From Heterodera schachtii (Eukaryota; Nematoda; Chromadorea; Rhabditida; Heteroderidae): DNA of 64,000 nt. The notes beneath the pieces were generated by a model, which ran no database searches, had not been told where the DNA came from, and was given only the letters and a program-made list of their open reading frames with translations. Below, in pieces: positions 16,025 through 29,816 of this stretch (positions within the stretch are counted from its first letter, which is position 1; each line of letters starts with the position of its first letter). Where the stretch lies: positions 1 to 64,000 of the forward strand of contig SIJG01000149.1 of assembly GCA_023374025.1 (NCBI GenBank), given 5' to 3'. Position numbers and translations under genes: made by a program.

Positions 16025-16410
16025 TAACATGGATTATGCATGTGATCTGGTTAAGCCGGGTATTGCTATGTTTTTCATGGGTATTTTTTTGTGGGGTTTA
16101 ATTTTTATTTATTTGTAAACTTTTATTTTAATGTAATTTTATTGTAAGTTTGCTTATCTCTATTAATCAACTTTGTGAATATATCATTATCTGATTTACC
16201 AATACACCTATGACTAATGAAAACCATAAATTGTTTTTATTTCATCATGAATAAATATATTTAAGAATAAAAAAATTTTTAATTTCCACATTTTTCTGTA
16301 AAAATTAAATTATGTCATAAAAATTAACTTGGAAATTACCCCTTTATTTTTTGTAAATCATGTAAAACTATAAACTAAAATAAACAAATGAAAAAAACAT
16401 TTTACTAAAA
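16025..16410. other. Short intergenic stretch, nothing recognised
   Basis: AT-rich 3' flank of the Cys-rich gene up to the LTR edge, with AATAAATA-type polyadenylation-like sequences near 16250. Confidence 0.5.
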
Positions 16411-16890
16411 TAACACACATTGCCCAGTGGAACGTGCTGAATTAGGCCTTGGGACCCCCAACCCTTAGAAATCCAATCATTTTTATGAGGAGGTCCTGGG
16501 GTGATCAATCCCACTTCCCTCCCCAACTCATTCCAAATCCAACTCCATTTTGGATTGGCTTTATTTCCGGAAAAGCATGGAAAATAAATACAATAAATAC
16601 AAATAAATAAAATAATTACATAAAATGGAATCAAATATTTAAATACAATTAAATAAAAACATAAAATACAAAATTAAATAAATTAAATAAGTTACATAAT
16701 CATGATTAAGTGATCATAAGTGGAGAGATCGCACATTAAATAGACATAAATGGAAAGGGGAGGAGTGTCAGATCGATCGCTATTGGCTAACGGAAAATTA
16801 AATAAAATGAAAATAAAAAGGAAATTAAAAGTGAGTGTGAAATTGTGCCTAATGCTTCGGCAATTTATGTTAATTAGCTTATGTCTTACA
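16411..16890 (-). repeat. 3' LTR of the retrotransposon
   Basis: 480 bp matching 29305-29787. In element sense it begins TGTAAGACATAAG and ends CAATGTGTGTTA. It contains one copy of the element's 8-mer in reversed orientation (16854-16861). Confidence 0.9.
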
Positions 16891-16907
16891 CCTCATACCC
16901 CCTTTTA
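16891..16907 (-). promoter_or_regulatory. Polypurine tract
   Basis: In element sense the 17 bases just before the 3' LTR read AAAAGGGGGTATGAGG plus one upstream base, a purine tract of the kind that primes plus-strand DNA synthesis. Its position fixes the LTR 5' edge at TGTAAG. Confidence 0.75.
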
Positions 16908-17170
16908 GACCGTCCCTGGTCTCAGATTTTTGAAACCAGATAAAAACAAAAGTTTTTGTACAATTATTTTTACGCAGTTTTTATTCAAAAATTTTCAAGG
17001 ATTTTGCATAAAATTATTTAAAAATGTAAAAATCAAAATTATTAAAAATGAATTATGAACTTTTCGCCTATCACTCCCTTCCTTAAAAGGATCGTCCCTG
17101 ATCCATTTTTTTTTAAATTTTTTTGCCAAAGCATTAAATCCGCCATTTCCGCCCTTTTTATCATTCAAAT

Positions 17171-20100
17171 TTATTTCCATTGCCCTTTGCCCCTTGGTTG
17201 GCCACGTCCTGCTGATTGTCCATCCGCGTACCAGCAATTCTTTGCCAAATGCCCAACACGTTTGCACACAAAGCAAGCACCACGAGGACCCGCTGGTTCG
17301 CGACTTCTGACAAAAACGGCACCGCTGTACTGCTCAAAACGCTGCTGTGGCCTCCAAGTCTCATTTCTTCGTGCACTTGGACCTTGGTCGGGCTCATCCG
17401 CTCTTCTTTTTCGCGACTCAAATATGGACGTACTGCTTGAAGTGCTCTGCTGTTGCATCGTTCGCCAATTTTCGTCATTCTTTTGTAGAAATTGCAGATC
17501 CTGTACGACTCTACCAATGTTGTCGATTAGTTGCCCATATCGATCACGCATATACCGACCATTTCGGAGGATCTGAAGATACTCTTCACCAACGATTTGA
17601 GAGTCCTCACTTGCTGTTTCCAAAAACTTATTCCATACCTCACCCTCACTTAAAGTTTTAAAGTCCCCAATCAAAAATAAACCACTTTTTGCCCTGCTTA
17701 AAGCTACTGTAGCTCTTCTCGAATCCTTCAAAAATTCTGAATTCTCACTTAATGCCCCATCTCTAAGACTCGTTCTTGTTGTGACCAAAATTACCAAATC
17801 ACTTTCTTGCGCTTGATACCCATCAACTGTCACAACAAGCACCTCAATTCTCTCCCTCTCAAATTCAGTTTGAAGCGATTCTTTTTGATAAGAATACAAG
17901 CAAATCACAACTAATGACACATTTGGAGACAAAATTGAATTTTTCAACGCAGTTACTATTTGAATTGCCGCAGCAGTTTGAGAATCGTTGGTCAACGAAT
18001 GCGAGAGCGGGTCCTGTCTGCACTTTCCGACAACATTCAGCAGAACAATTGGACAACTTTGAATTGGCAAAGGAAACTTCGAAGCTGTCAAGAGGGACCG
18101 ATCTTCAGCTGCTCTTCCTGGTTCAAATTTTTCTCCATTTGGCTCATATACTGCCGAAGCAACTGCTTTCACCAATGTCGGATGCATTCTGTAACAAGTC
18201 GTTAGACGAGTTTGAACAACTGTCGGAGACATGACCAACTGATCCACCATAGATTCAAGACCAAAACCGGATTGTAGCAAAGGCGGGAGCTTCTGCAGAT
18301 GAACACCAAGCTGCAATTGGTCACCAGTTACCAAGACTTTCTCCAATTTTGGCATTCTGGCTACTAAATGTGCTAAGCAGACCCACGATCCCTGCGTAGC
18401 TTCATCAAAAATAAGAACTGTTGTGCCGTCTAAAGCCGTGTGAATCAAACTTTCTGCCATCGACACTGTGGTGAAGACAACCCGCAAATCCGCAACTTCT
18501 GAGTACAAATTCGCTACTTTTCGCTCCTTCGTTAAGCGTGGTCGAACTTCGAAATTCTTACAATAAGTCTCAATTTCCTTCACATCGTCTTGCGTCTCAA
18601 ACTTGCTTATTATCTCTTCGTTCGAAATTTTGGAAATCAACAAATGCCTTTTCAACTTTTCTAACATTTCTTTGTACTTTTCTTTGGCATAACCCGAAAA
18701 GAACGCAACTGAACCTGATTCTTCCATCTCATCACAACCAAATACATCATTCAATTCTTGGACTAATTTTGCAAGTGGCAAATTTGCTGCTGTCACAATG
18801 GCAATTTTGACTTCCTTTTCTAACGACAAAAGAATTGCTGCAACAATTGCGGCAACATACGTTTTGCCTACGCCCGGCGGAGCATGCTGAAAAACAAAGT
18901 GCGATTCCTTGCTCAACAAAAGCTTTGCTGTCTGCTGCTGCTTTTCATTTAACTTTTTCATCAATGCATGATTAATTTGTATTGCCGAAGCACTTTGGTC
19001 CACATTTTCTTCAATTATCTCCTCAGTTCTGCCTAATACCGCACGCATCATTTTCCCCTGTTTTGTTTCCAAATTTGCAATTTTTGATGGCAAATTAGAA
19101 GCAAAACAATCCCTTCTGTGTTTCACTCCAATCGGAATGATCGGGTGTACAACAAAGACTCCACCTTCTGCTGCTGCTTCCAATTCGGCATGAACATCAC
19201 GAAACTTTCTCTCTTGGACATTTGTGACTTTGGCCATTATCCAAAAATTGAATTTCGGCTTTCCGTCCTCTCTGATTCGCTCAATGTCAATTTGCTTGAC
19301 ATACCCGGAAGCAAAGTTCGGCAAATCCAACGCAGTTCTGAAGATGACATTCGCTTCTTCTGTCCAAACTTCTTTCAATTTTTTCATTTTTTCAGTGTCA
19401 ATTTCAGCAAATCTCAACCAAAAAGTGTCGTTCTGCCATTCTGCTCTTCCTTCAAATTTGCCTTCAACTATTCTCTTTTCCTCATCTTCAAAACTGTAGG
19501 CAATCGCTGAACTCATGATTTGTTCTGACATCTCAATTTCCGGCAAAGTCATCTCTGGCAAAAGCGGAAAGAAGACATTGCGAGAATTTGATTGGTATGG
19601 CCACGGTGCATGATTTCCAACAATGGCGAAAACTCCTTTGCCTTCCTCTATCTGTTTTTCAGTCCCCAGTCGCAATTGGCTCTGAGGTGGAAGTATGAAC
19701 GAATTTTCTACTAATGTCTGCTCCGGAACAAAAGCAGTCCAAACTTTTAGCAACTGTCCTTCTTGGAGAGAGTCCAATTCCAACTCAGAAAGCTGACGTC
19801 GATAGCATCTCGAACTCAACTGCAGACCAGGAGAAATAATGATAGCACAAAGCTTTTTCGTGACACCATTTGAGACCATTTCTCTTATTCTTAAGACCAA
19901 ACCCGGATGTTCCCTCAGAATTGCATATCTTATATGACTGAGGTCAATGACTGTTGCTTGGCTATTTATTTTCTGCACATACCACATTTTGTTGAAATGA
20001 CTTTTTTCAGTTTCTCTTTTTGCCAAATAGCGGTAATCATTTTTCCACTCAAATTTTTTCACTCCAACTATGTCTCCCATTTGCAATTTCTTTTTAAACT

Positions 20101-20617
20101 CTCTTGCCTTTTCAGCCACCTCATTTGAAATTGCTACAAAATGTGGCCAACTTTTGTTAGCCATTGTCCTCAATTTTCCTCCAATCACTGTATTTTCTTC
20201 TACTTGGCAAACCAAGTATTCAACATTTTTCCCATCATTTTCCTTCACATTAAAACTTGAAAATTCTTCCATCATTTCTTCAGCCATTTCATCTGGGTTT
20301 TTGTCAAATCCTTGATTAGCAAACTTTTCAGAATCTCTTTGGCTTGCCGAAGCAACATTTTTATTTAAATTTTGATTCTTTTCCCCTTTTTCTTGCCCAC
20401 TGTTCCCTTTTTCCCCTCCCAAAGTTATTTTGCTTGCCGAAGCAGCTAAATCCACACTTATTTCGTTGCTACGACTTTCTTTAGAAATATTTGAGTTTCC
20501 ACTTGGGCTTGCCGAGGCAATTTTGTTCTTTTTCCTTACATCTTCCAATGTTAACTTTTCCAACGGCGGAAATTCGCTCAGGTCCCGAACATTTGGTGGT
20601 GCTGTTGGTGCCGACAT
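17171..20617 (-). CDS. UPF1-like SF1 helicase with C-terminal CCHC zinc knuckle (retrotransposon cargo)
   Basis: A 1148-residue intronless frame. Superfamily 1 (UPF1/SMG-2-like) motifs appear in order: I APPGVGKT (about 577), II FDEAT (about 737), III GDQLQLG, IV CYRMHP (about 810), V VDGYQAQESD (about 934), VI RRATVALSRAK (about 971). The canonical Walker A GPPGTGKT is changed but keeps GKT. Near residue 1120 lies CFVCKRVGHLAKNC, a CX2CX4HX4C knuckle typical of Gag, after a Q/R-rich linker. The N-terminal 550 residues are charged and contain repeated ASAS tracts encoded by the element's hairpin motif. Such helicases unwind RNA or DNA by ATP hydrolysis; UPF1 acts in nonsense-mediated decay. 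Its place between pol and the 3' LTR and its uninterrupted frame argue that it belongs to the transposon. A role in protecting or remodelling element RNA is inference. Confidence 0.88.
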   Translation of the reverse strand: MSAPTAPPNVRDLSEFPPLEKLTLEDVRKKNKIASASPSGNSNISKESRSNEISVDLAASASKITLGGEKGNSGQEKGEKNQNLNKNVASASQRDSEKFANQGFDKNPDEMAEEMMEEFSSFNVKENDGKNVEYLVCQVEENTVIGGKLRTMANKSWPHFVAISNEVAEKAREFKKKLQMGDIVGVKKFEWKNDYRYLAKRETEKSHFNKMWYVQKINSQATVIDLSHIRYAILREHPGLVLRIREMVSNGVTKKLCAIIISPGLQLSSRCYRRQLSELELDSLQEGQLLKVWTAFVPEQTLVENSFILPPQSQLRLGTEKQIEEGKGVFAIVGNHAPWPYQSNSRNVFFPLLPEMTLPEIEMSEQIMSSAIAYSFEDEEKRIVEGKFEGRAEWQNDTFWLRFAEIDTEKMKKLKEVWTEEANVIFRTALDLPNFASGYVKQIDIERIREDGKPKFNFWIMAKVTNVQERKFRDVHAELEAAAEGGVFVVHPIIPIGVKHRRDCFASNLPSKIANLETKQGKMMRAVLGRTEEIIEENVDQSASAIQINHALMKKLNEKQQQTAKLLLSKESHFVFQHAPPGVGKTYVAAIVAAILLSLEKEVKIAIVTAANLPLAKLVQELNDVFGCDEMEESGSVAFFSGYAKEKYKEMLEKLKRHLLISKISNEEIISKFETQDDVKEIETYCKNFEVRPRLTKERKVANLYSEVADLRVVFTTVSMAESLIHTALDGTTVLIFDEATQGSWVCLAHLVARMPKLEKVLVTGDQLQLGVHLQKLPPLLQSGFGLESMVDQLVMSPTVVQTRLTTCYRMHPTLVKAVASAVYEPNGEKFEPGRAAEDRSLLTASKFPLPIQSCPIVLLNVVGKCRQDPLSHSLTNDSQTAAAIQIVTALKNSILSPNVSLVVICLYSYQKESLQTEFERERIEVLVVTVDGYQAQESDLVILVTTRTSLRDGALSENSEFLKDSRRATVALSRAKSGLFLIGDFKTLSEGEVWNKFLETASEDSQIVGEEYLQILRNGRYMRDRYGQLIDNIGRVVQDLQFLQKNDENWRTMQQQSTSSSTSIFESRKRRADEPDQGPSARRNETWRPQQRFEQYSGAVFVRSREPAGPRGACFVCKRVGHLAKNCWYADGQSAGRGQPRGKGQWK

Positions 20618-20731
20618 TTCTGTAATAAATCATTTGTTATTGCGGTGTTATTTGAAAAAAATATATAGGATTTAATATAATTATAATTAAATTATTATTA
20701 TTATATGTAATATTTAAAAAAAATTTTGGAT

Positions 20732-21298
20732 TTATTTATTTTTTTTCGTGTTCATTTCACCAGATTTCTTACGCAGGAATTTCTTCATCAGTGATGAGAG
20801 AATCCGTCCAAGGATATTTTTACCAGGCCATCGGTTTATGTCGCGGATTTTTTCAACATCCGAAAGGGCCACTCCTGCGCCCCAATACACGTCATTTGCT
20901 GCACATTCAACAAATTCAGCATCGGGACCAAAATTGAAGAGATGGCGCATCAGGTCTTCATTTTGCTTATACTTATGCCAATTAGCACAGGTCATGACGA
21001 ATATGCTTATTCGTCTCCAAGCAGTGGTGTCGAACAACCGAATTCGCGATCCAATGCGTTTGCACTCCTTCGGATTTGACGTGCGCATGATTGCAGATGC
21101 CGATTCGTCGTCACCAAATACGCTCGCCTTGGCCCACATATACATTTGTTCGCTCGAGGAAAATTCAAGGCCATCAATGACAAATCGGCAGGAGAAGTGA
21201 TTGGAAAATGGATATGCTGATGTGAAGAATGGCACTAGTTTTCTCCCATCTTGCGATATGACAACCTTCGCAGTCGGCATGCTGAATGGATACGACAC
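20732..21298 (-). CDS. NADAR (YbiA-like) domain protein (retrotransposon cargo)
   Basis: 188 residues. Family landmarks: PFSNHF (30-35), FSSSEQMYMWAK (46-57) with the conserved glutamate E50, NPKECKRIGSRI (75-86), KYKQNEDLMRHL (109-120), DVYWGAG (136-142) and WPGKNILGRIL (157-167). NADAR proteins act on ADP-ribose-type N-glycosidic linkages; bacterial and phage members can remove ADP-ribose from guanine in DNA. The C-terminal 20 residues are basic. It is intronless and separated by 114 bp from the helicase start downstream in element sense. Family assignment is confident. A role against host ADP-ribosylation defence is my inference from the family and location. Confidence 0.85.
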   Translation of the reverse strand: MSYPFSMPTAKVVISQDGRKLVPFFTSAYPFSNHFSCRFVIDGLEFSSSEQMYMWAKASVFGDDESASAIMRTSNPKECKRIGSRIRLFDTTAWRRISIFVMTCANWHKYKQNEDLMRHLFNFGPDAEFVECAANDVYWGAGVALSDVEKIRDINRWPGKNILGRILSSLMKKFLRKKSGEMNTKKNK

Positions 21299-21435
21299 TA
21301 ATGATTTTATTTGTTTTCTTATTTTCTTCTTATATTTTAAAATTGTTAATTTTTTTTTTAATTTATTTAATTTATTTATTTTATTTATTTATTTTTTTAA
21401 CCCCTCTTTCTGAACTTTTACTTGCCAAAGCAAAA

Positions 21436-21552
21436 TTAATTATTTAAACTGAGTTTTCTTGCTCTTGGATTTTTCCTAAGATTATATCTCGGACCAATTT
21501 GCGCAGGTTCATCCGTTTCTTCTACTTCTTTGGAAAATTGCTGTGGGTTATT
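21436..21552 (-). CDS. Pol C-terminal tail (integrase end), remnant
   Basis: In element sense this reads about 38 residues ending GPRYNLRKNPRARKLSLNN and stop, the basic tail typical of gypsy-type polyproteins. It is cut off from the rest of pol by about 1 kb of repeats and the N gap. The integrase catalytic core is not visible on either side. A degenerate copy of the element motif (GCCAAAGC) lies just downstream. Confidence 0.5.
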   Translation of the reverse strand, partial: NNPQQFSKEVEETDEPAQIGPRYNLRKNPRARKLSLNN

Positions 21553-21597
21553 TAAAATCATTTGTTACATTAATGAAATATATAAATAGATATAATA

Positions 21598-22295
21598 CAG
21601 AGATGTAATCTCAAAATTTTGAAAATCCTCATTTCAGCCGTAAAAAATCCTCATTTGCCACTAAAATACTTCAAAAAAATCCTCATTGGCATGAAAAAAT
21701 CTTCATTTGGCATGAAAAATCCTCATTTGGCATGAAAAATCCTCATTTTTTAAAACATCATAAAATGCGTACAAAATCAGTTAACTGTCATATTTTTTGT
21801 TTGAAACAATCAAATTCATCAATTTTTGTCATTTGTAAGCATTTTATGGAAGTCTTAGCACGAACAATCGAAGTTGCACTTCACTTGGGCCAATGCTTTC
21901 ACTGTGTCCATGTGTAATGAATTCTGTTTATCTGTCCACTTAGACCCACAAAAAAATTGCTTCTTTTTTTTGTGGCGCGGTTTTTCAGAAAACTTTTTGG
22001 GAACAGTGAGGGAGGGGGTCCGGCAGTTCCGATAGGCGCTGCCGGAAAAAATTTGGAATTTTGAGTACGATTTGTTAACAAATTTTGTCAAAAAAATGAT
22101 TTTGACTGAGGATTTTTCGAAAAAATGTTTAAGATTTGAAGAAAAAGTTCGAACATTTTGCCAAATATACCTATTTTTCAAAAATTATGCGTTATTGTCA
22201 CTTTTTTCTCAAAAGACCACAAAAATCGTCATTTTCAAAAAAATCCTCTTTGACCCTCTAAAAGACCACAAAATGAGGAAAAATCCTCAGATATC
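21598..22295. mobile_element. Repeat inserted within pol, hAT-like family
   Basis: Begins with about five copies of a 21-bp unit (AAATCCTCATTTGGCATGAA). It contains the core CGGCAGTTCCGATAGGCGCTGCCGG at 22020-22044 with the adjoining TTTGTTAACA block seen in the other MITEs. Possible flanks AGATATAA and AGATATCA differ by one base. Inverted ends are not clear. Confidence 0.45.
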
Positions 22296-22299
22296 ACGA

Positions 22300-22458
22300 T
22301 TGGCCGACATTTGCGGCGCTGACATTTGCGGCGCAGACATTTGCGGCGCCCAGTCAAAGCGACACTTGCGGCGCCGACATTTGCGGCGTGACACTTGCGG
22401 CGCCGACACTTGCGGCGACGACACTTGCGGCGCCGACAGATGCGGCGCCCAGTCAAAA
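22300..22458. repeat. 15-bp GACA(C/T)TTGCGGCGCC tandem array beside the gap
   Basis: About nine imperfect copies of a 15-bp unit with palindromic GGCGCC, twice interrupted by CAGTCAAA. It runs straight into the assembly gap. Some units were translated as the Arg/Cys-rich end of the pol frame, which is an artefact. Confidence 0.75.
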
Positions 22459-22531
22459 NNNNNNNNNNNNNNNNNNNNNNNNNNNNNNNNNNNNNNNNNN
22501 NNNNNNNNNNNNNNNNNNNNNNNNNNNNNNN
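22459..22531. other. Assembly gap (73 N)
   Basis: Runs of N between the integrase zinc-finger coding sequence and the GGCGCC array. Its true size is unknown and it may hide the integrase core. Confidence 1.
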
Positions 22532-25500
22532 TGCTCTATAAGGCGGATTTGGAGAATGCCTAAGCTGACAAGTGATACATTCTTTGTACCATCTTAATAT
22601 GTCTGCGTGCATTAATGGCCAAAAATATTTGCAACATTTCTTTAGTGTTTTACTCAAATCCATATGTCCACCGCCTAGACGAGTGGTATGAAAAGAGTCA
22701 AATATTAGAGCCCTTAATGATATTGGAATATAAATTCTCGGCTTAGTGTCTTTCTGATAAAAATAGAGAATATTTGACTCTAGGCATAAATCTTTAGCCA
22801 ATATTGATAGTCTATCTTTTTCTTGCCTGAGCATTTCATTTGGAAATTCACCTGATTTTAAGAATTGAATTAAAATTGACATTTCAGGATCTTCGTTTTG
22901 TTCCTTTTGTATGTCAACCTGTTTTATTTCTCCTTCAATATTACGAATGGAAAGAGTTAGCCCAAATTTCTCATGAATAATTTTGGGGTTGGGAGAAATT
23001 GCTAAACAGACTGGGAATTCAGCCAAGTCTTCAAGTTCTTGAACTTGTTCAATTTCTTCTTGACTAAGATTCTCATGGGGAATACGGGATAGGGCATCAG
23101 CTAAAGAATTTTGTTTACCTGCTATATGTACTATTTTTATGTTATAATTTTGTAGCTCAATAAGCCACCTAGCCAAATTTTGATGTGTTTCTGCCTTTTT
23201 TAATAAAAATGCTAACGGCTTGTGATCTGTATGTAATTCAATGTTTGACATAAAAATGAACGGTTTGAATTGCCGAAGCGCAAATATTATTGCTCCTAAT
23301 TCAGTCTGAACAGGAGGCCAATTTCTCTCAGTTTTGGAAAGCGTTCTACTGCAATAAGCAATTGCATTATAAACTCGGTTTTCCGAATCCCATTGCATTA
23401 GTGCGCCTCCCTGACCCACAGAAGATGCATCACAAAATATATGAAATGGCTTAGAATAGTCAGGGAATATAAGAACAGGCTTTTCAGAAAGAATTTTCTT
23501 AATTTTCTCAAAAGCATTTTCTTGCTCATCAGTCCAATTAAATTGTTTATCTTTCCTAGTTAATCTCGTTAATGGTTCCACAATAGTTGAAAAATTCGGA
23601 ATATGCTTTCTGAAAAAGCTTGCCATTCCCACTACTTGCCTAATTTCCTTTACATTGGTTGGATTTTGCAGATTAAGAATTGATTCAACTTTGCTTATGC
23701 TTGGAGTATATCCATTTTTGTTTACAATATACCCCAGAAAATTCATGCTTGCCGAAGCCAAAATACATTTTTGTGGTTTAAGTTTTAAATTAAACCTTCT
23801 GAATCTTTCAAAGACACTTTTAAGAGAGTCTAAGTGCTCATCAAAGTTGTCAGACTTTGTGAAAACCAAAATATCATCCACATAAGCAATGACATTTTCA
23901 AGACCTGTTAGTACATGTGCCATGACTCTGGCAAATGCACTTGTTGCATTTTTCAATCCAAAAGGCAAATTAATCATCTGAAAAATTTTGTCCTCAGTGA
24001 TCACTCCACATTTTCTGGATGCTTTTTCACTTAATTTTATTTGCAAATAACCGCTGGCCAAGTCCAGTGATGTATAAAAGCAACAATTTCCCACTTTTTC
24101 TAAAATAACTTCTAAACGGGGTAACGGAAAATGATCAGGTACAGTAACCTCATTTAATTTTCTGAAATCAATACATGGCCTAAGCCCTCCGTCCTTTTTC
24201 TGTACCAAGACTATGTTTGACACCCATGGTGTGTCTGACTCAACCATAACTCCTGAGGCTAAGAGTTGGTCAATGTGTTTCTGTAGCTCATCCCTATATT
24301 TAAATGGAATTCGATGGGGTTTGGAAGCAATTGGCTCATTAGACGTTGTGACAATTTCATGTTCACCTGCTATACAATTGCCTAAGTCATATTGACTTTT
24401 GCTAAAAATGTCCTTAAATTCTTCACAAAGTTCCATTAGCTTACTTAGGTCATTCCCTTTAACTGAAGTTTTACTAAAATCTAACTTAAATGCCGGGTCA
24501 ATTTCAACTTCTTTTTCTATCAGTGCATTAAATTCATATTCATTGTCCTCATTCTCAATTTCAGTAAAAATAGTGCTATTTTCTGTTTCTAAGACTTCAT
24601 TTGCATTGCCGAGGCATGTTCCTTTGAAAATTCTTTTTACAGTTGAGGTAGGATTTGTAATTATTACATTAATTGTTTCTGATTTGGAATCAGATAATGA
24701 CGGCACAAAACCCATACCCTCGTATTTCCCTTGCTTATTCTCCCAACTTGAAATACTTTTGGGTTCAAAAGAATTTTTCTTTGATTCAATTTTTTGAATT
24801 TCTTCGTTTGTATGAATCATTTGTAATGCTTTAATGTTCTGTTGGCTCGCCGAAGCGTAATTTTTGTTCATTTTCATTTCATGCACCTGAACTGCTAAGT
24901 CTTCTACCATATCTTTTAATTGTTTTGACTCATTTGTGGACCAATTGTCCCTATTTGAATTTTGTGGCGGAGGTTGCCATCGTGTCTGATTCCGATTGTT
25001 AAATTGTCCAGAAAAGTCATTCTGTCTTTCCCTGCAATTGTATTGTACATGTCCGGTTTTCTTACAGTAATGACAGACGGGTCTATTGTTCCATCTTCTA
25101 TCATTTTGTGGGCCCCAATCCCTCCTTTGCTGATTGTATCTATTGTTCTGTGAAAAATGGTTGGGTCTCCTGTCTGACTGATCACGATTTTCATTTCTAA
25201 ATGTTCTGTGCCCAAGTTGAATATTGTTAGGGTTCGAAGGTCCCCATGTGTTAAATTTGCCCTGTGGAACTTGACTAGGATTTGTATTAAGTGCGTGAAT
25301 GCCGAAGCTCTCATTTCTCACATCCCTCTCAATTGAAACTTCTAACTCTTGAATGTATGCTGTCAGTTTCTGAAAGTCCTTTCTCCCAATAAGTGGTCCT
25401 ACAAGCTGTAATGAACGCTGAAATTCGGGTCTAACTTTCTCTATGAGACACCTACACATCATCTCTTCTCTCGCTTCAGGCGGAAGTTGAGCTGAAGTTG

Positions 25501-25810
25501 TGTTGACAAGAGGAACTAAGCGCTTAATAAAGTCACTTACTGACTCTCCCTCCTTTTGGTAACATGCCGCTAATTTTCTGTAGGCTAATTCCCGAAAATG
25601 AGGGCTGTCCAATTTTAATCTGATATTTTTCAATGCATTGGCGAGGGTACTTCTTTCATTTTGAAGCAAATTTTCAAAAATGGTCCGTGTTTGGGTTCCC
25701 AAATGTAGCTTAAGACGATTCAATTTCTCTGACTCATTCCAATTTGTACCAAAAACATCAATATAATCCCTAAATTTAATTTTCATCAAATGCCGAAGCA
25801 ATTTCACCAT
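22532..25810 (-). CDS. Gag-Pol polyprotein: CA, zinc knuckle, RT, RNase H, IN zinc finger
   Basis: About 1093 residues up to the gap. In order: a retrotransposon Gag capsid-like segment (FRDYIDVFGTNWNESEKLNR), a CCHC knuckle CHYCKKTGHVQYNC (about 244), reverse transcriptase with LPFGLKNA and the active-site YVDD (about 642), RNase H (IFCDASS about 790, HTDHKPLAFLL) and the HHCC zinc finger of integrase ending ECITCQ (about 1080). No D-T/S-G aspartic protease motif is visible between knuckle and RT, where it should lie. The ATG at 25810 lies in the overlap with the upstream gag frame, and the shift between them is +1. It copies element RNA into DNA and would integrate it if the IN core exists. 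Confidence 0.9.
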
Positions 25811-26330
25811 TAAATAGCCCTGGTTGTGGTCCCGAAGTGCCTACTTCAGTGAGTGCATTCACATTACCCTTATTTGGTGCTTGGATTTGGAAAATAGGTG
25901 CTAAGTTAGCAGGAGGAGTTGCTGGAATATTCAGTCTAGGAGATATTGGAAGTCTTCTGAATGGAAAAGGTGCAGTTCCCTGGGCTTCTTGAGTTTTGTT
26001 CATATCATCAAACTCTAATTGTTCTCTCGTATCTATCTCATTTTTCCATGTACTAAATTTCCCGTCTAATTCTGTGACTACTTCCCCTAAAGTGTCGACC
26101 CGTTTCGCCACCGTATCAAAACCTAGATTTACATCATTAGCAATCTCAACCACGCGATTTGAAACATTTGTTACTTTTCGGTTAATTATTCTCAAATTTC
26201 GGTTCACCCCATCTTCTAAAAGTATTACTTCATCATGGACTTTCCCTAAGTCACCTAATTTTGCATGGTTTCCAAGTGCCTTCCCTTCCATGAATTTCTT
26301 ATCAATCACATTTAAATCGGTATATTCCAT
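25776..26330 (-). CDS. Gag N-terminal ORF
   Basis: 184 residues starting MEYTDLNVID. The first 110 residues have the heptad-like spacing of a coiled coil (RNLRIINRKVTNVSNRVVEI), followed by a proline-rich stretch. It ends GLFNGEIASAFDEN and stop, overlapping the next frame by 35 bp. Capsid and nucleocapsid parts continue in that frame, so either a programmed +1 shift or a one-base error joins them. The hairpin motif lies both just before the ATG (26337-26344) and inside the overlap (25792-25799). Confidence 0.75.
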   Translation of the reverse strand: MEYTDLNVIDKKFMEGKALGNHAKLGDLGKVHDEVILLEDGVNRNLRIINRKVTNVSNRVVEIANDVNLGFDTVAKRVDTLGEVVTELDGKFSTWKNEIDTREQLEFDDMNKTQEAQGTAPFPFRRLPISPRLNIPATPPANLAPIFQIQAPNKGNVNALTEVGTSGPQPGLFNGEIASAFDEN

Positions 26331-28499
26331 TTTCTTGCCGAAGCAATAATTTAATTTTATTTCTTTCCTTTTTGTTTATTTGTTTGTTTATTTTATTTCT
26401 TTTTTTGTATTATTTTTTAGAATAATTTGAATAATTAATTCAATAATCAGTGATTTGACCAACCCTTGGCCACGTCAAATTCCAAATCCAAAATCCAAAC
26501 GCTGCTCAGGTCCTTGACGACGACAAATTCCAACGCAAAAACACAATGCCAAAACCTGAATGAGTTACAGTATTAATTGTAATACAGTAAACCAATTCGG
26601 TTATCTGAATGATTACAATTTTAATTATTTAAGTAATTAATTATAATTGATAAATACCAATGATCAATAATTCCAAAAAAAATTTTAGGAAGAAAACACT
26701 ATTTAAGGTTGTCCCAATAAACTTTCAATTATTATTAGAAATGCACCAAAATTATAAAAACAAAAGAATATAAACATATATGTTAAGCATTATCATATCA
26801 TTGATACAAAATTATTTTTTTTTTGATCAGTTAATTAATTAGAGAGAGAAAACAAATTTAAATTTGTTTGTCACAGATTTGATTTAATCGAAAAGAAAAA
26901 AAAATTACTGTAATTACCATTTTTGAAATTTAATAAATGCATTAAATTGAAGCCAAAGTGCATGTGTACAAACAATTTAATTAATTAATCACTCACCCCA
27001 ATGAGTGAAATAATTGGATGTCATTGATTAATTAGACTCACTTAATTGGGCTTCAAAGGCAATTTGCAAATGCTGAGGCTCACAGAGTCCGTCCAATTGC
27101 AGTCACAGGCGAACAGAGAACCTGAAATTATTCCCAGAAATTAGTGATTGAAATTAATTTTACATTCGAATTAAGTTTCTGTGATTAAAAGTGAGACATT
27201 AATCATAAAGAGTCACATTTACTATTTTTATTGCTAACTCATTGTCTTTAGACTAATAATGCACTCAAATTTGACCAAGGAAAACCAAAAGCATAGGGAA
27301 ATTACTGTACATTTGAAAGGATTAAACCAATTTTGATTACTGTAATTAGTCTTTAATTATTATATTAGAAATGAGCGATAATTTAATTAAACTCCAGCAT
27401 TTGAATGCGTTAGACCCAAGAAGTACAGTATATTCGATACTGTGGGACTTACAGAAAAATGCCGAAGCGATGCGCAGTCCGTCCGATTGGTAAGCAACCG
27501 CAATTCAGTCCACAGTCCAACAGAGTCCGAAAGGTAGAACCTGAAATAGTACCCAAAATGTTAATAAATGTCATATATTTTACATACTGATTACCGTAGG
27601 TAGAAACCCCTATAACTCATAAAGCATAAGATAAAGATTTATTGGCCCATTTGTGACCCATTAATTCTAATTTGAAAGTCGAATTATCACCAAATTATTA
27701 AGTAAAAGGCATTTTTGTTTGCCCAAATTTTAGGGTTACCAGGATTACCAAGATTTACGAATTGTAAAAAGTTTCACCATTTTTTACTCCAAGAAGGATC
27801 CCAAAGGCTTGAAAATCCTCCCCTCTTAATTGGTACAGTATCCATTACTGTAACTCACAGAGAATTGCCGAAGCGATGTCCTTGCCAATTGTCCTTGTTT
27901 AGTTGTGTCGGAAGTGTGCCGATGCCGAGTCCAAATCCAATGATTTGCAGTTAAGACTTATTTTTTAGAGTTGAAAATTGAATTGCTAAAAATGAAAAGA
28001 GAAAAAAACAAATTAATTTAAATTGCAAACATAATAAAATTCCTAATAAATGAGACATTAAATAAATTCACAAATAAAAATGATGTTTTGGAGGAATGAA
28101 TTGTGTGCTGTAAATCCGCATTATTGGCGTCTCATAAATGAATGGCCAAGCGACGCCATCCTCCGCCCATCATCGCCGGGGGGGGGGGGGGAACGAAGAA
28201 GAGATGAGTGTGAGAAGACGCTACGAATTGCAACAGATCTTCCGATTGACAAAAGAAAGCAGCGCCGGAGGGGAGAAAGAGAGAGAGCGCAGTGCTAACG
28301 TTAAGTGAGCAATGTTCTCAGCAGATGGCCAAAACGATAACGCGAGCTGTGAGCGTACTTTGCTCATCAACATGTCCGGCAAAATTCCCCTCTTTTTTTT
28401 GAGTACTGTAGTCCCTTTTGTATACTGTACATGATTTAAATTAATTTTTATAGTTTTCATTATTTTTATTTACTTTTTTTTTTTATATAACTTTTCAAT

Positions 28500-29130
28500 C
28501 ATCTCTTTGGCTTCCCGAAGGACCTACTGTATTTTCACTGTACATTTGTGTTTGTTTTTTTTTTTAGCTTTTAATTTCACATTTGAATTTTCACTTTTTT
28601 TTTTGACTGACTGATTTCAATTTTTTTCGGTCATTTTCCATTTTTATTTCAATTTATCTCTTTGTCTTCCCGAAGGGCATTTTCATTTTTCATCTCGAAG
28701 AATATTCCTAATTTCAATTTTTATCCTTCATGGCATTTCGAATTTTATTCCACTAATTATTATCCTAATGGTCATTTTTCTTAGCCATCCAAAGGGGCAT
28801 CTTTTCACTTATTGTCTTCCCGAAGGGCATTCCAAATTTTACATTTTCATCTTAATGGCCATCCCGAACTTTATTTTTCACATATTTGTCTTCCCGAAGG
28901 GTATCCAAAATTTTCACTTATTTGTCATCCTAATGGGCATTAAATCATCCAAAAGGGCATCCCGGGGCATTCTCTTTTTTTTTCATCCCGAAGGGCATCC
29001 TAGGGCATCCCGAAAGTCATTTTTTTCTATTTATCATCCTAAGGGGCATCCCAAATTTTCATAATTTCATCCTAATGGGCATTCTCATCCAAAAGGGCAT
29101 CCCAAAGGGTATTCACTGACTTTATCGGGG
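28500..29130 (-). repeat. Leader array of degenerate ATGCCCTTCGGGATG units
   Basis: On the plus strand, about 15 loose units like TCATCCCGAAGGGCATCC, separated by T-rich spacers. At least five keep CCGAAG (28515, 28670, 28820, 28894, 28988), which in element RNA is CUUCGG, again able to form a UUCG tetraloop. Confidence 0.65.
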
Positions 29131-29287
29131 CATTCTTTTTTCACTTTCTTCTTTTCTCCTTTTTACCGCCTCCGGAGGACTTTCTTTTTATTGCCGAAGC
29201 ACTCACTGATGGCCATCTTTTCCATGCTTTTCCCTCACTAATATTTTCCTATGGGTTGTCCCTTAGCCGCCCAGGCCAAATGCCTAA

Positions 29288-29303
29288 CCATCCGGTGCTA
29301 CCA
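29288..29303 (-). promoter_or_regulatory. Primer binding site
   Basis: In element sense, directly after the 5' LTR, the sequence TGGTAGCACCGGATGG begins with the TGG that pairs with a tRNA CCA end. It would match a tRNA whose acceptor starts AGCACCG. I cannot name the tRNA. Confidence 0.65.
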
Positions 29304-29304
29304 A

Positions 29305-29787
29305 TAACACACATTGCCCAGTGGAACGTGCTGAATTAGGCCTTGGGACCCCCAACCCTTAGAAATCCAATCATTTTTATGAGGGGGTCCTGGGGTGATC
29401 AATCCCGCTTCCCTCCCCAACTTATTCCAAATCCAACTCCATTTTGGATTGGCTTTATTTCCGGAAAAGCATGGAAAATAAGTACAAATAAATACAAATA
29501 AATAAAATAAGTACATAAAATGGAATCAAATATTTAAATATAATTAAATAAAAACATAAAATACAAAAATTAAATAAATTAAATAAAGTTACATAATCAT
29601 GATTAAGTGATCATAAGTGGAGAGATCGCACATTAAATAGACATAAATGGAAAGGGGAGGGGTGTCAGATCGATCGCTATTGGCTAACGGAAAATTAAAT
29701 AAAATGAAAATGAAAAAGAAATTAAAAGTGAGTGTGAAATTGTGCCTAATGCTTCGGCAATTTATGTTAATTAGCTTATGTCTTACA
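29305..29787 (-). repeat. 5' LTR of the retrotransposon
   Basis: 483 bp, about 98% identical to 16411-16890. It carries a reversed copy of the element 8-mer at 29751-29758. Confidence 0.9.
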
Positions 29788-29816
29788 CTTAATTGACCCA
29801 ATTCTGATCAATTAAG

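Follow-up and report, generated by a model that had tools for sequence, protein, structure and literature searches.

The window analyzed here is a stretch of 64,000 nucleotides (C149:1-64000; C-numbers denote contigs of one and the same genome, assembled as 178.5 Mb in 356 contigs). Its minus strand contains what the sequence identifies as a Ty3/gypsy-type long terminal repeat (LTR) retrotransposon of a Heterodera-type cyst nematode. Two additional genes, one for a NADAR protein and one for a UPF1/NAM7-like superfamily 1 (SF1) helicase, lie between its pol and its 3' LTR, and both are very probably selected cargo of the element. Comparison of gene neighborhoods across the genome identifies NADAR as the recurrent part of such cargo, found with gypsy, BEL/Pao, and MULE elements, and its partner as the variable part, either a helicase or a nucleotidyltransferase.

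RESULTS

Two additional genes in the window element and in a second copy

The initial annotation, made from the letters alone, had described both genes as intronless, in element orientation, and located between pol and a polypurine tract followed by an LTR, within a pair of LTRs about 98% identical. This description is borne out. The LTRs align over 486 columns with 9 mismatches and 3 gap openings (97.5% identity), and NADAR and the helicase are each encoded by a single open reading frame (ORF) on the strand of pol, with matches in Pfam and PDB. The order on the minus strand is leader, gag, gag/pol frame, a gap (73 N), a stretch that a second copy on contig C40 does not have, NADAR, helicase, and 3' LTR. 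The annotation did not mention that the window copy is damaged: its pol ends at the gap (22459-22531), the integrase part is replaced, and no integrase core was seen in it. It is also short of about 2.5 kb of the gag-pol frame of the C40 copy, and the protease stretch is missing from it.

The C40 copy, whose LTRs are 98.6% identical to each other, has the order gag-pol (protease, reverse transcriptase [RT], RNase H, integrase)-NADAR-helicase-LTR. Its gag ORF of 384 aa gives a PNMA match just over the cut-off, and its pol ORF of 2,135 aa contains a protease (25.2 bits; cut-off, 24.3), RVT_1, RNase H, and H2C2, together with an rve integrase core at 30.2 bits, under the cut-off of 32.6. Both cargo genes are open (NADAR, 181 aa; helicase, 1,148 aa). 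About 160 bases separate the pol stop from the NADAR ATG, and about 120 bases the NADAR stop from the helicase ATG. No N bases occur in the three pieces fetched of this copy, and because it keeps the same gene order, the idea that the position of the cargo is an artifact of the gap in the window was rejected. A broken NADAR in C40 was rejected as well, since both TAA triplets lie upstream of the ATG, from which 181 aa are open. At neither the window copy nor the C40 copy did inspection by eye show an exact target-site duplication.

The initial annotation had proposed examining other full-length copies for the pair and for purifying selection, and both checks favor the genes as cargo. In a genome search with the LTR, 40 of 59 candidates were scored and gave 46 matches, so that further copies are possible. 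Among these matches, LTRs at least 97% identical were found at two places only, the window and C40, and both of these full-length copies carry both genes open. Other LTR relatives are located at C46 (87%) and C52:1052892 (84%).

Between the window and C40, the helicase shows 72.5 synonymous and 19.5 nonsynonymous differences, giving a ratio of nonsynonymous to synonymous divergence (dN/dS) of 0.068 (p = 2e-32). For NADAR, 5 synonymous and 3 nonsynonymous differences give a dN/dS of 0.16 (p = 0.014), a value that rests on eight differences. For pol from the RT on, the counts are 13 and 2 (dN/dS, 0.039). Chance ORFs were rejected as an explanation of NADAR and the helicase by the Pfam and PDB matches and by dN/dS. 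The synonymous divergence is unequal along the element (helicase, 0.106; NADAR, 0.044; pol, 0.029), that of the helicase being about 3.6 times that of pol, which suggests recombination between element lineages. Constraint is also indicated in more distant relatives: the C87/C52 pair gives a dN/dS of 0.061 for the helicase part (471 codons) and of 0.173 for a NADAR ORF of 394 aa, and the C85/C6 NADAR pair gives 0.175 at a dS of 1.36.

The helicase and NADAR proteins

The window helicase and NADAR have their closest protein relatives in Heterodera trifolii and H. schachtii; more distant ones come from Meloidogyne enterolobii (helicase) and Globodera rostochiensis (NADAR). The helicase matches PF13087 AAA_12 (3.5e-30), and by sequence its closest solved relatives are NAM7/UPF1 (5.1e-22). 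A profile search against PDB returned NAM7 (2.8e-23) and UPF1 (1.3e-18), followed by SEN1, SMUBP-2, and NFX1-type ZNFX1 (5.9e-11). The motifs APPGVGKT, DEATQ, GDxxQLG, CYRMHP, and QAQES/A..VTTR, which we take to be the named motifs of SF1 helicases, are kept among close relatives. On these grounds the protein is classed as a UPF1/NAM7-like SF1 helicase. Upstream of the core, on the side where UPF1 has its N-terminal CH (zinc) domain, the only Pfam match is a sub-threshold one (residues 535-574). A CCHC knuckle at the C terminus scores 16.1 bits, under the cut-off of 20.8. The score with AAA_12 is 105 bits versus 38 bits with Viral_helicase1, in contrast to what the virga-like helicases of insect long interspersed elements would be expected to show (PMC5563155), and a scan of viral contigs with the helicase alignment gave 31 pattern matches and no confirmed relative; both results point away from a viral origin of the helicase.

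The window NADAR matches PF08719 (2.9e-33; 115.8 bits, cut-off 35.1), and by family profile and fold it is a NADAR of the YbiA subfamily. Its residues E44, K51, and E125 correspond, as read from alignments, to the catalytic Glu and Lys and to the subfamily Glu. Papers are cited here for the text available of each; in PMC11543638 the residues named are E43 and E125 for an oomycete enzyme and E88 and K95 for E. coli C7. NADARs have been reported to undo the ADP-ribosylation of guanine, and riboflavin intermediates are substrates of some of them (PMC11125620, PMC11543638).

A tree against host homologues, also proposed initially, places the window-type NADAR, but not the other gypsy NADARs, with a spliced host gene (support 98/94). 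This gene lies at C45, and three matches of the genome search are exons of it. The six NADARs labelled gypsy formed a single clade in 0% of 200 bootstrap trees; in this tree, which contains two C85 rows and leaves out SNA-3, the C87 and C52 proteins bear that label by the adjoining helicase only, no gypsy pol having been seen there. The NADARs at C6, C52, and C87 form a clade apart from the window type (99/99 versus 98/94). NADAR thus seems to have joined one and the same helicase lineage at least twice.

NADAR in gypsy, BEL/Pao, and MULE elements of one genome

A search of the genome for NADAR gave 35 matches. In the stretches fetched, eight adjoin a helicase or a gypsy-type pol (both at the window, C40, and C6; pol only at C68:571350; helicase only at C52 and at three matches on C87). 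Five adjoin BEL/Pao domains and a nucleotidyltransferase (C149:219185, C68:674668, C13:2020349, C47, and C26), and two a nucleotidyltransferase only (C152 and, by position, C90:264721). Six matches at five loci adjoin a MULE transposase or fragments of one (C36, C13:1380482, C7, C58, and C122). Ten were not placed in a mobile element (four on C85, two on C254, and one each on C17, C69, C4, and at C40:1061987). Beside the gypsy-type element with NADAR on C68, an ORF of 939 aa at 581.2-584.0 kb has a Monjiviricetes_fusion match (5e-15) and a weak aspartyl-protease match.

Two of the BEL/Pao carriers are delimited by LTR pairs, of 881 bp and 98.2% identity at C68:670-683 kb and of 1.18 kb and 90.4% identity at C149:215-228 kb, and each pair encloses gag-pol, NADAR, and a nucleotidyltransferase. 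The domains recognized are DUF1759, DUF1758, Peptidase_A17, and DUF5641 in C68 and DUF1759, DUF1758, RVT_1, and DUF5641 in C149; integrase matches fall under the cut-off in both. At C13, C47, and C26, BEL/Pao domains are present, though no LTR pair was found in the pieces compared. NADAR shares the ORF of integrase or DUF5641 at C149 and C26, whereas at C47, C13, and C68 a more downstream ORF contains it. A GS...DxD motif is present at all six NADAR-nucleotidyltransferase loci read (seven pieces, the C-terminal half at C149 being without it), and the nucleotidyltransferase of C68 resembles TUT7, TUT4, and GLD-2 (1e-22 to 3e-20). No protein relatives of the BEL NADAR-nucleotidyltransferase region were found among 7,992 scored candidates.

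The MULE transposase adjoins NADAR at five of six loci, the query locus included; at C5, a close relative of the MULE NADARs, none was found in the fetched stretch. At C36:536.8-540.0 kb, NADAR and a FLYWCH-MULE transposase, encoded on opposite strands, are flanked by inverted repeats of up to 81 bases that lie about 2.9 kb from each other; the arms of the two main ones are 91 to 95% complementary. At the C13 MULE locus, the 3.5 kb available yielded no inverted repeat. All three pairs among the C36, C13, and C7 NADARs give low dN/dS (0.164, 0.110, and 0.095, the latter two at a dS above 1.4).

Age of the pair and a sister family without it

The pair of NADAR and helicase is, by its distribution among relatives, old. 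In four of nine database relatives of the helicase, all from H. trifolii (P0001, P0002, P0004, and P0008), both proteins are part of one gene model, and P0004 keeps NADAR with a helicase only 57% identical to that of the window. The models without NADAR are three from M. enterolobii, a fragment from H. schachtii, and an unnamed protein. In the genome studied here, helicases 35 to 42% identical to the window protein adjoin NADARs at C6, C52, and C87 in the reversed order helicase-NADAR, the order being less telling at C87, where the units stand in tandem. These are three units of 2.5 kb at C87:200-209 kb, 99% identical, each holding a NADAR gene next to part of a helicase; the 30 kb fetched there gave no match to gag or pol. 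In the NADAR ORF of 394 aa at C52 (L028:8157-9338), the part after NADAR resembles helicase residues 135-331 (about 24% identity; E = 8e-5) and is possibly an accessory domain shared with the helicase.

According to the initial annotation, copies of the element lacking both genes would mark these as trapped host genes. This applies only in part, and only to a distant sister family at C25 (LTR identity, 79%), whose 3' side, over the 4.5 kb fetched, gave neither a NADAR match nor a helicase core. The pair is thus not needed by every related element. However, C25 keeps an ORF (ORF3, 434 aa; L044:723-2027) whose N terminus resembles the one of the window helicase and which also has a CCHC knuckle. 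A separate remnant of a window-type helicase C terminus lies at L044:283-411. About nine LTR pairs of 76 to 79% identity are visible, C25 included, and the genome NADAR search gave no match at the others. The annotation had further regarded the two genes as a module carried by the element. Purifying selection and the recurrence of the pair in divergent relatives agree with their belonging to the element, but the partner of NADAR is not fixed among elements.

Splice-acceptor-like signals

A CAG within three bases before the ATG occurs at 6 of 13 ORF starts, or at 4 of 11 if the near-identical C40 copies are left aside. Its distance from the ATG is 1 base for the window NADAR and the gypsy NADAR of C68 and 2 bases for the helicase and ORF3 of C25. 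As background, 84 of 2,130 ATGs in the window have such a CAG, and 16 of 310 on the element strand. The H. trifolii models P0001 and P0002 splice different upstream ends directly onto the helicase start, as would be expected if a trans-splice acceptor had been read as the end of an intron. Separate spliced expression of the additional genes has, on these signals, about an even chance of being correct.

DISCUSSION

Proposed role of the cargo and competing explanations

The explanation we favor, to which as a whole we give a probability of roughly 0.5, is that a Ty3/gypsy element recruited two accessory genes, which selection has kept as additional cistrons behind pol and ahead of the 3' LTR. 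Each would be expressed from its own spliced RNA, probably by spliced leader (SL) trans-splicing onto the acceptor 1 to 2 bases before the ATG. NADAR would be the host-directed part and would probably undo a host modification, either ADP-ribosylation of nucleic acid of the guanine type or some other N-glycosidic adduct; alternatively, it might interfere with a host RNA pathway in which NADAR proteins take part, such as trans-splicing dependent on SNA-3. The NADAR residues of nematode SNA-3 are required for its full trans-splicing function (PMC9303266). The partner, a helicase here and a nucleotidyltransferase in BEL/Pao, might act on element RNA against decay or small-RNA silencing. It is suggestive that enzymes of broadly these classes also serve the silencing machinery of Caenorhabditis elegans: the conserved helicase ZNFX-1 has pUG-tailed RNAs as its targets in silencing by small RNAs (PMC9276528), and RDE-3 is the nucleotidyltransferase that adds the pUG tails (PMC12265681). 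A counter-silencing or counter-modification role of the cargo is put forward tentatively.

The simplest alternative, that two host genes were picked up by chance and are carried without function, could draw on the clustering of the window NADAR with an intron-bearing host gene and on the C25 family, which is without NADAR and helicase core in the part fetched. However, both genes are under purifying selection and are open in both full copies, the pair is kept in the H. trifolii relative with the 57% identical helicase, and NADAR occurs in distinct lineages across three transposon types, so that trapped host genes are very improbable. It could also be proposed that the cargo consists of cis-acting helpers of retrotransposition with no arms race involved, the helicase or nucleotidyltransferase aiding packaging, strand transfer, or unwinding, and NADAR cleaning ADP-ribose-type adducts or NAD-derived caps from the template before reverse transcription. 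The gag-like CCHC knuckle at the end of the helicase fits this proposal, as does ORF3 of C25, which has the N terminus and knuckle without the core, as would be seen had RNA binding come first; so does the location of NADAR in pol-downstream polyprotein ORFs of BEL/Pao and in Pol of an Ectocarpus Gypsy element (PMC12477816). However, a selected NADAR is also carried by a MULE, a DNA transposon that has no need of packaged RNA, and the job of NADAR is therefore probably not in reverse transcription or packaging. We consider the helper proposal somewhat unlikely.

A closer link of NADAR to SL trans-splicing, in which elements would use it as the host uses SNA-3, either to trans-splice their downstream cistrons or to protect full-length RNA from trans-splicing, is compatible with the acceptor-like CAG beside some cargo start codons and with the spacing between the cistrons of C40 (about 160 and 120 bases). 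It is nevertheless an improbable account, because NADAR cargo occurs also in Ectocarpus Gypsy elements and oyster long interspersed elements (LINEs) (PMC12477816), no SNA-3 was identified in this genome, and the BEL/Pao NADARs sit inside longer ORFs.

Several observations weigh against recruited, host-directed cargo as we propose it. Some concern selection: the small number of differences behind the NADAR ratio, the high dS of two MULE pairs, the saturated dS of the BEL pair C47/C26, for which dN/dS is not computable, and the short gag ORF of the element itself, which with 3 synonymous and 7 nonsynonymous differences between the window and C40 (dN/dS, 0.65) shows no significant constraint. The BEL copies are partly broken: the NADAR match at C68 is short of the first 34 profile positions and begins at its ORF's edge, the nucleotidyltransferases of the C149 and C13 copies are split, and the residue equivalent to D130 is replaced, by alignment, in four of the six NADARs labelled BEL. 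An acceptor-like CAG is missing at 7 of the 13 ORF starts (C87, C52, C6, and MULE), some of which are only the first Met, and in the C25 family NADAR and the helicase core are missing from the 4.5 kb fetched. The deep branches of the NADAR tree are weak (64/64), and with such support separate recruitment from hosts cannot be distinguished from exchange between elements. The window NADAR also passes the NCBIfam model for the N-glycosidase of riboflavin intermediates, and its activity could have a metabolic role. Finally, we know of no ADP-ribosylation of transposon RNA or DNA in the nematode.

Relation to known systems

NADAR and SF1 helicases each have a published precedent on retrotransposons, and the combination is apparently new. 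A YbiA-family NADAR has been described at the N terminus of Pol in Ectocarpus Gypsy elements, and NADARs in ORF1 of Tx1 LINEs of Crassostrea gigas, their role being called unclear (PMC12477816). Like the window element, these are retrotransposons, that of Ectocarpus likewise a Ty3/gypsy; however, their NADARs are fused in Pol or ORF1, whereas that of the window is a separate gene after pol, beside an SF1 helicase. Outside Ectocarpus, the Ectocarpus NADARs gave almost only bacterial blastp hits according to the authors, whereas the window NADAR clusters with a spliced nematode gene. The available text of that article makes no mention of BEL/Pao or MULE carriers.

SF1 RNA helicases of virga-like virus origin have been found in insect TRAS and Jockey LINEs and in two Ty1/Copia fusions, and weak suppression of silencing in a plant test is reported for the insect helicases (PMC5563155, PMC6338049). 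They share with the window helicase the kept SF1 motifs and the retrotransposon carrier, but the latter is NAM7/UPF1-like, ends in a CCHC knuckle, and is encoded by a gene of its own that NADAR accompanies in a Ty3/gypsy element. Bdelloid rotifer LTR retrotransposons carry captured ORF3s (DEDDy exonuclease, GDSL esterase) that are common to unrelated retroelements (PMC5408684). As in the present genome, one enzyme type is found there on unrelated elements, and one of the enzymes processes RNA or single-stranded DNA. The enzyme families differ, however, and the intragenomic variation of the rotifer ORF3s is mostly neutral, whereas here purifying selection is found and a DNA transposon is included.

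NADARs are also known from the toxin-antitoxin pairs DarT-NADAR and YarT-YbiA and from viruses, including nematode nidoviruses (PMC11543638, PMC11125620, PMC9503650). These proteins have the same catalytic positions as the window NADAR and occur in settings of mobile or viral conflict, but no ADP-ribosyltransferase gene was seen beside the window NADAR, and its carrier is a retrotransposon. A term search of a paper on RNA viruses of cyst nematodes (PMC5839581) found neither NADAR nor nidoviruses mentioned. C. elegans SNA-3 is, like the window protein, a nematode NADAR protein and has an RNA role (PMC9303266); it differs in being a host protein of 937 aa with three domains, whereas the window NADAR has a single domain and clusters with another spliced gene in a tree that does not include SNA-3. 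The initial statement that no element with the NADAR-helicase pair had been described still stands: neither this pair, nor NADAR with a terminal nucleotidyltransferase, nor NADAR in BEL/Pao or MULE elements was found in the literature searched, mostly without subscription papers.

That a single enzyme family rides on mobile elements of three unrelated kinds within one genome is what a shared host obstacle would be expected to produce. The distinct NADAR lineages in Ty3/gypsy, BEL/Pao, and MULE raise the possibility, which we rate below even, that NADAR is a general counter-defense or RNA-handling module of nematode mobile elements; this would point, as its target, to an undiscovered host system that puts ADP-ribose on transposon nucleic acid or to a NADAR-dependent control of trans-splicing. 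If the hydrolysis of guanine-bound ADP-ribose is the selected trait, animals may use ADP-ribosylation of nucleic acids against transposons, of which we know no demonstration. If trans-splicing is the target, the elements give a handle on SNA-3, whose domain function its discoverers call unknown in the text available (PMC9303266). In either case, the two genes of the window are open and conserved and can be tested directly.

Features of the window

The coordinates are collected in Table 1. The candidate primer-binding site begins with TGG in element orientation, presumably as is the rule for such sites.

Table 1. Features of the retrotransposon in the window
Feature	Position	Strand	Basis or remark
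5' LTR	29303..29788	-	97.5% identity to 16409-16891; TGT end at 29787
Candidate primer-binding site, directly inside the 5' LTR	29288..29303	-	Sequence reading
gag ORF, first part, 199 aa	25776..26375	-	98% identity to the C40 gag ORF
gag/pol ORF, ending at the gap; RT, RNase H, and integrase zinc domain, with weak matches of CCHC and PNMA-like type	22532..25840	-	Pfam, alignment with C40
Assembly gap, 73 N	22459..22531	.	Sequence
15-bp minisatellite and other short repeats, in the place of the integrase-coding part of C40	21532..22458	.	No match to the C40 copy
Candidate acceptor for trans- or cis-splicing (CAG), 1 base from the NADAR ATG on its upstream side	21282..21284	-	Sequence
NADAR gene, 182 aa from the ATG at 21280	20732..21280	-	E44, K51, E125, D130, and W133 present
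Candidate splice acceptor (CAG), 2 bases from the helicase ATG on its upstream side	20620..20622	-	Sequence; two H. trifolii gene models join directly before the ATG
UPF1/NAM7-like SF1 helicase gene, 1,148 aa from the ATG at 20617, C-terminal CCHC zinc knuckle	17171..20617	-	Pfam, PDB, alignments
Candidate polypurine tract, directly before the 3' LTR	16892..16906	-	Sequence reading
3' LTR	16409..16891	-	98-99% identity to both LTRs of the C40 copy

The leader (28615-29120) contains, by eye, many imperfect repeats resembling GGGCATCC, which are absent from the output of the tandem-repeat search. The 15-bp minisatellite (GCCGACACTTGCGGC) extends over 22303-22449, beside the assembly gap, and may be its cause.

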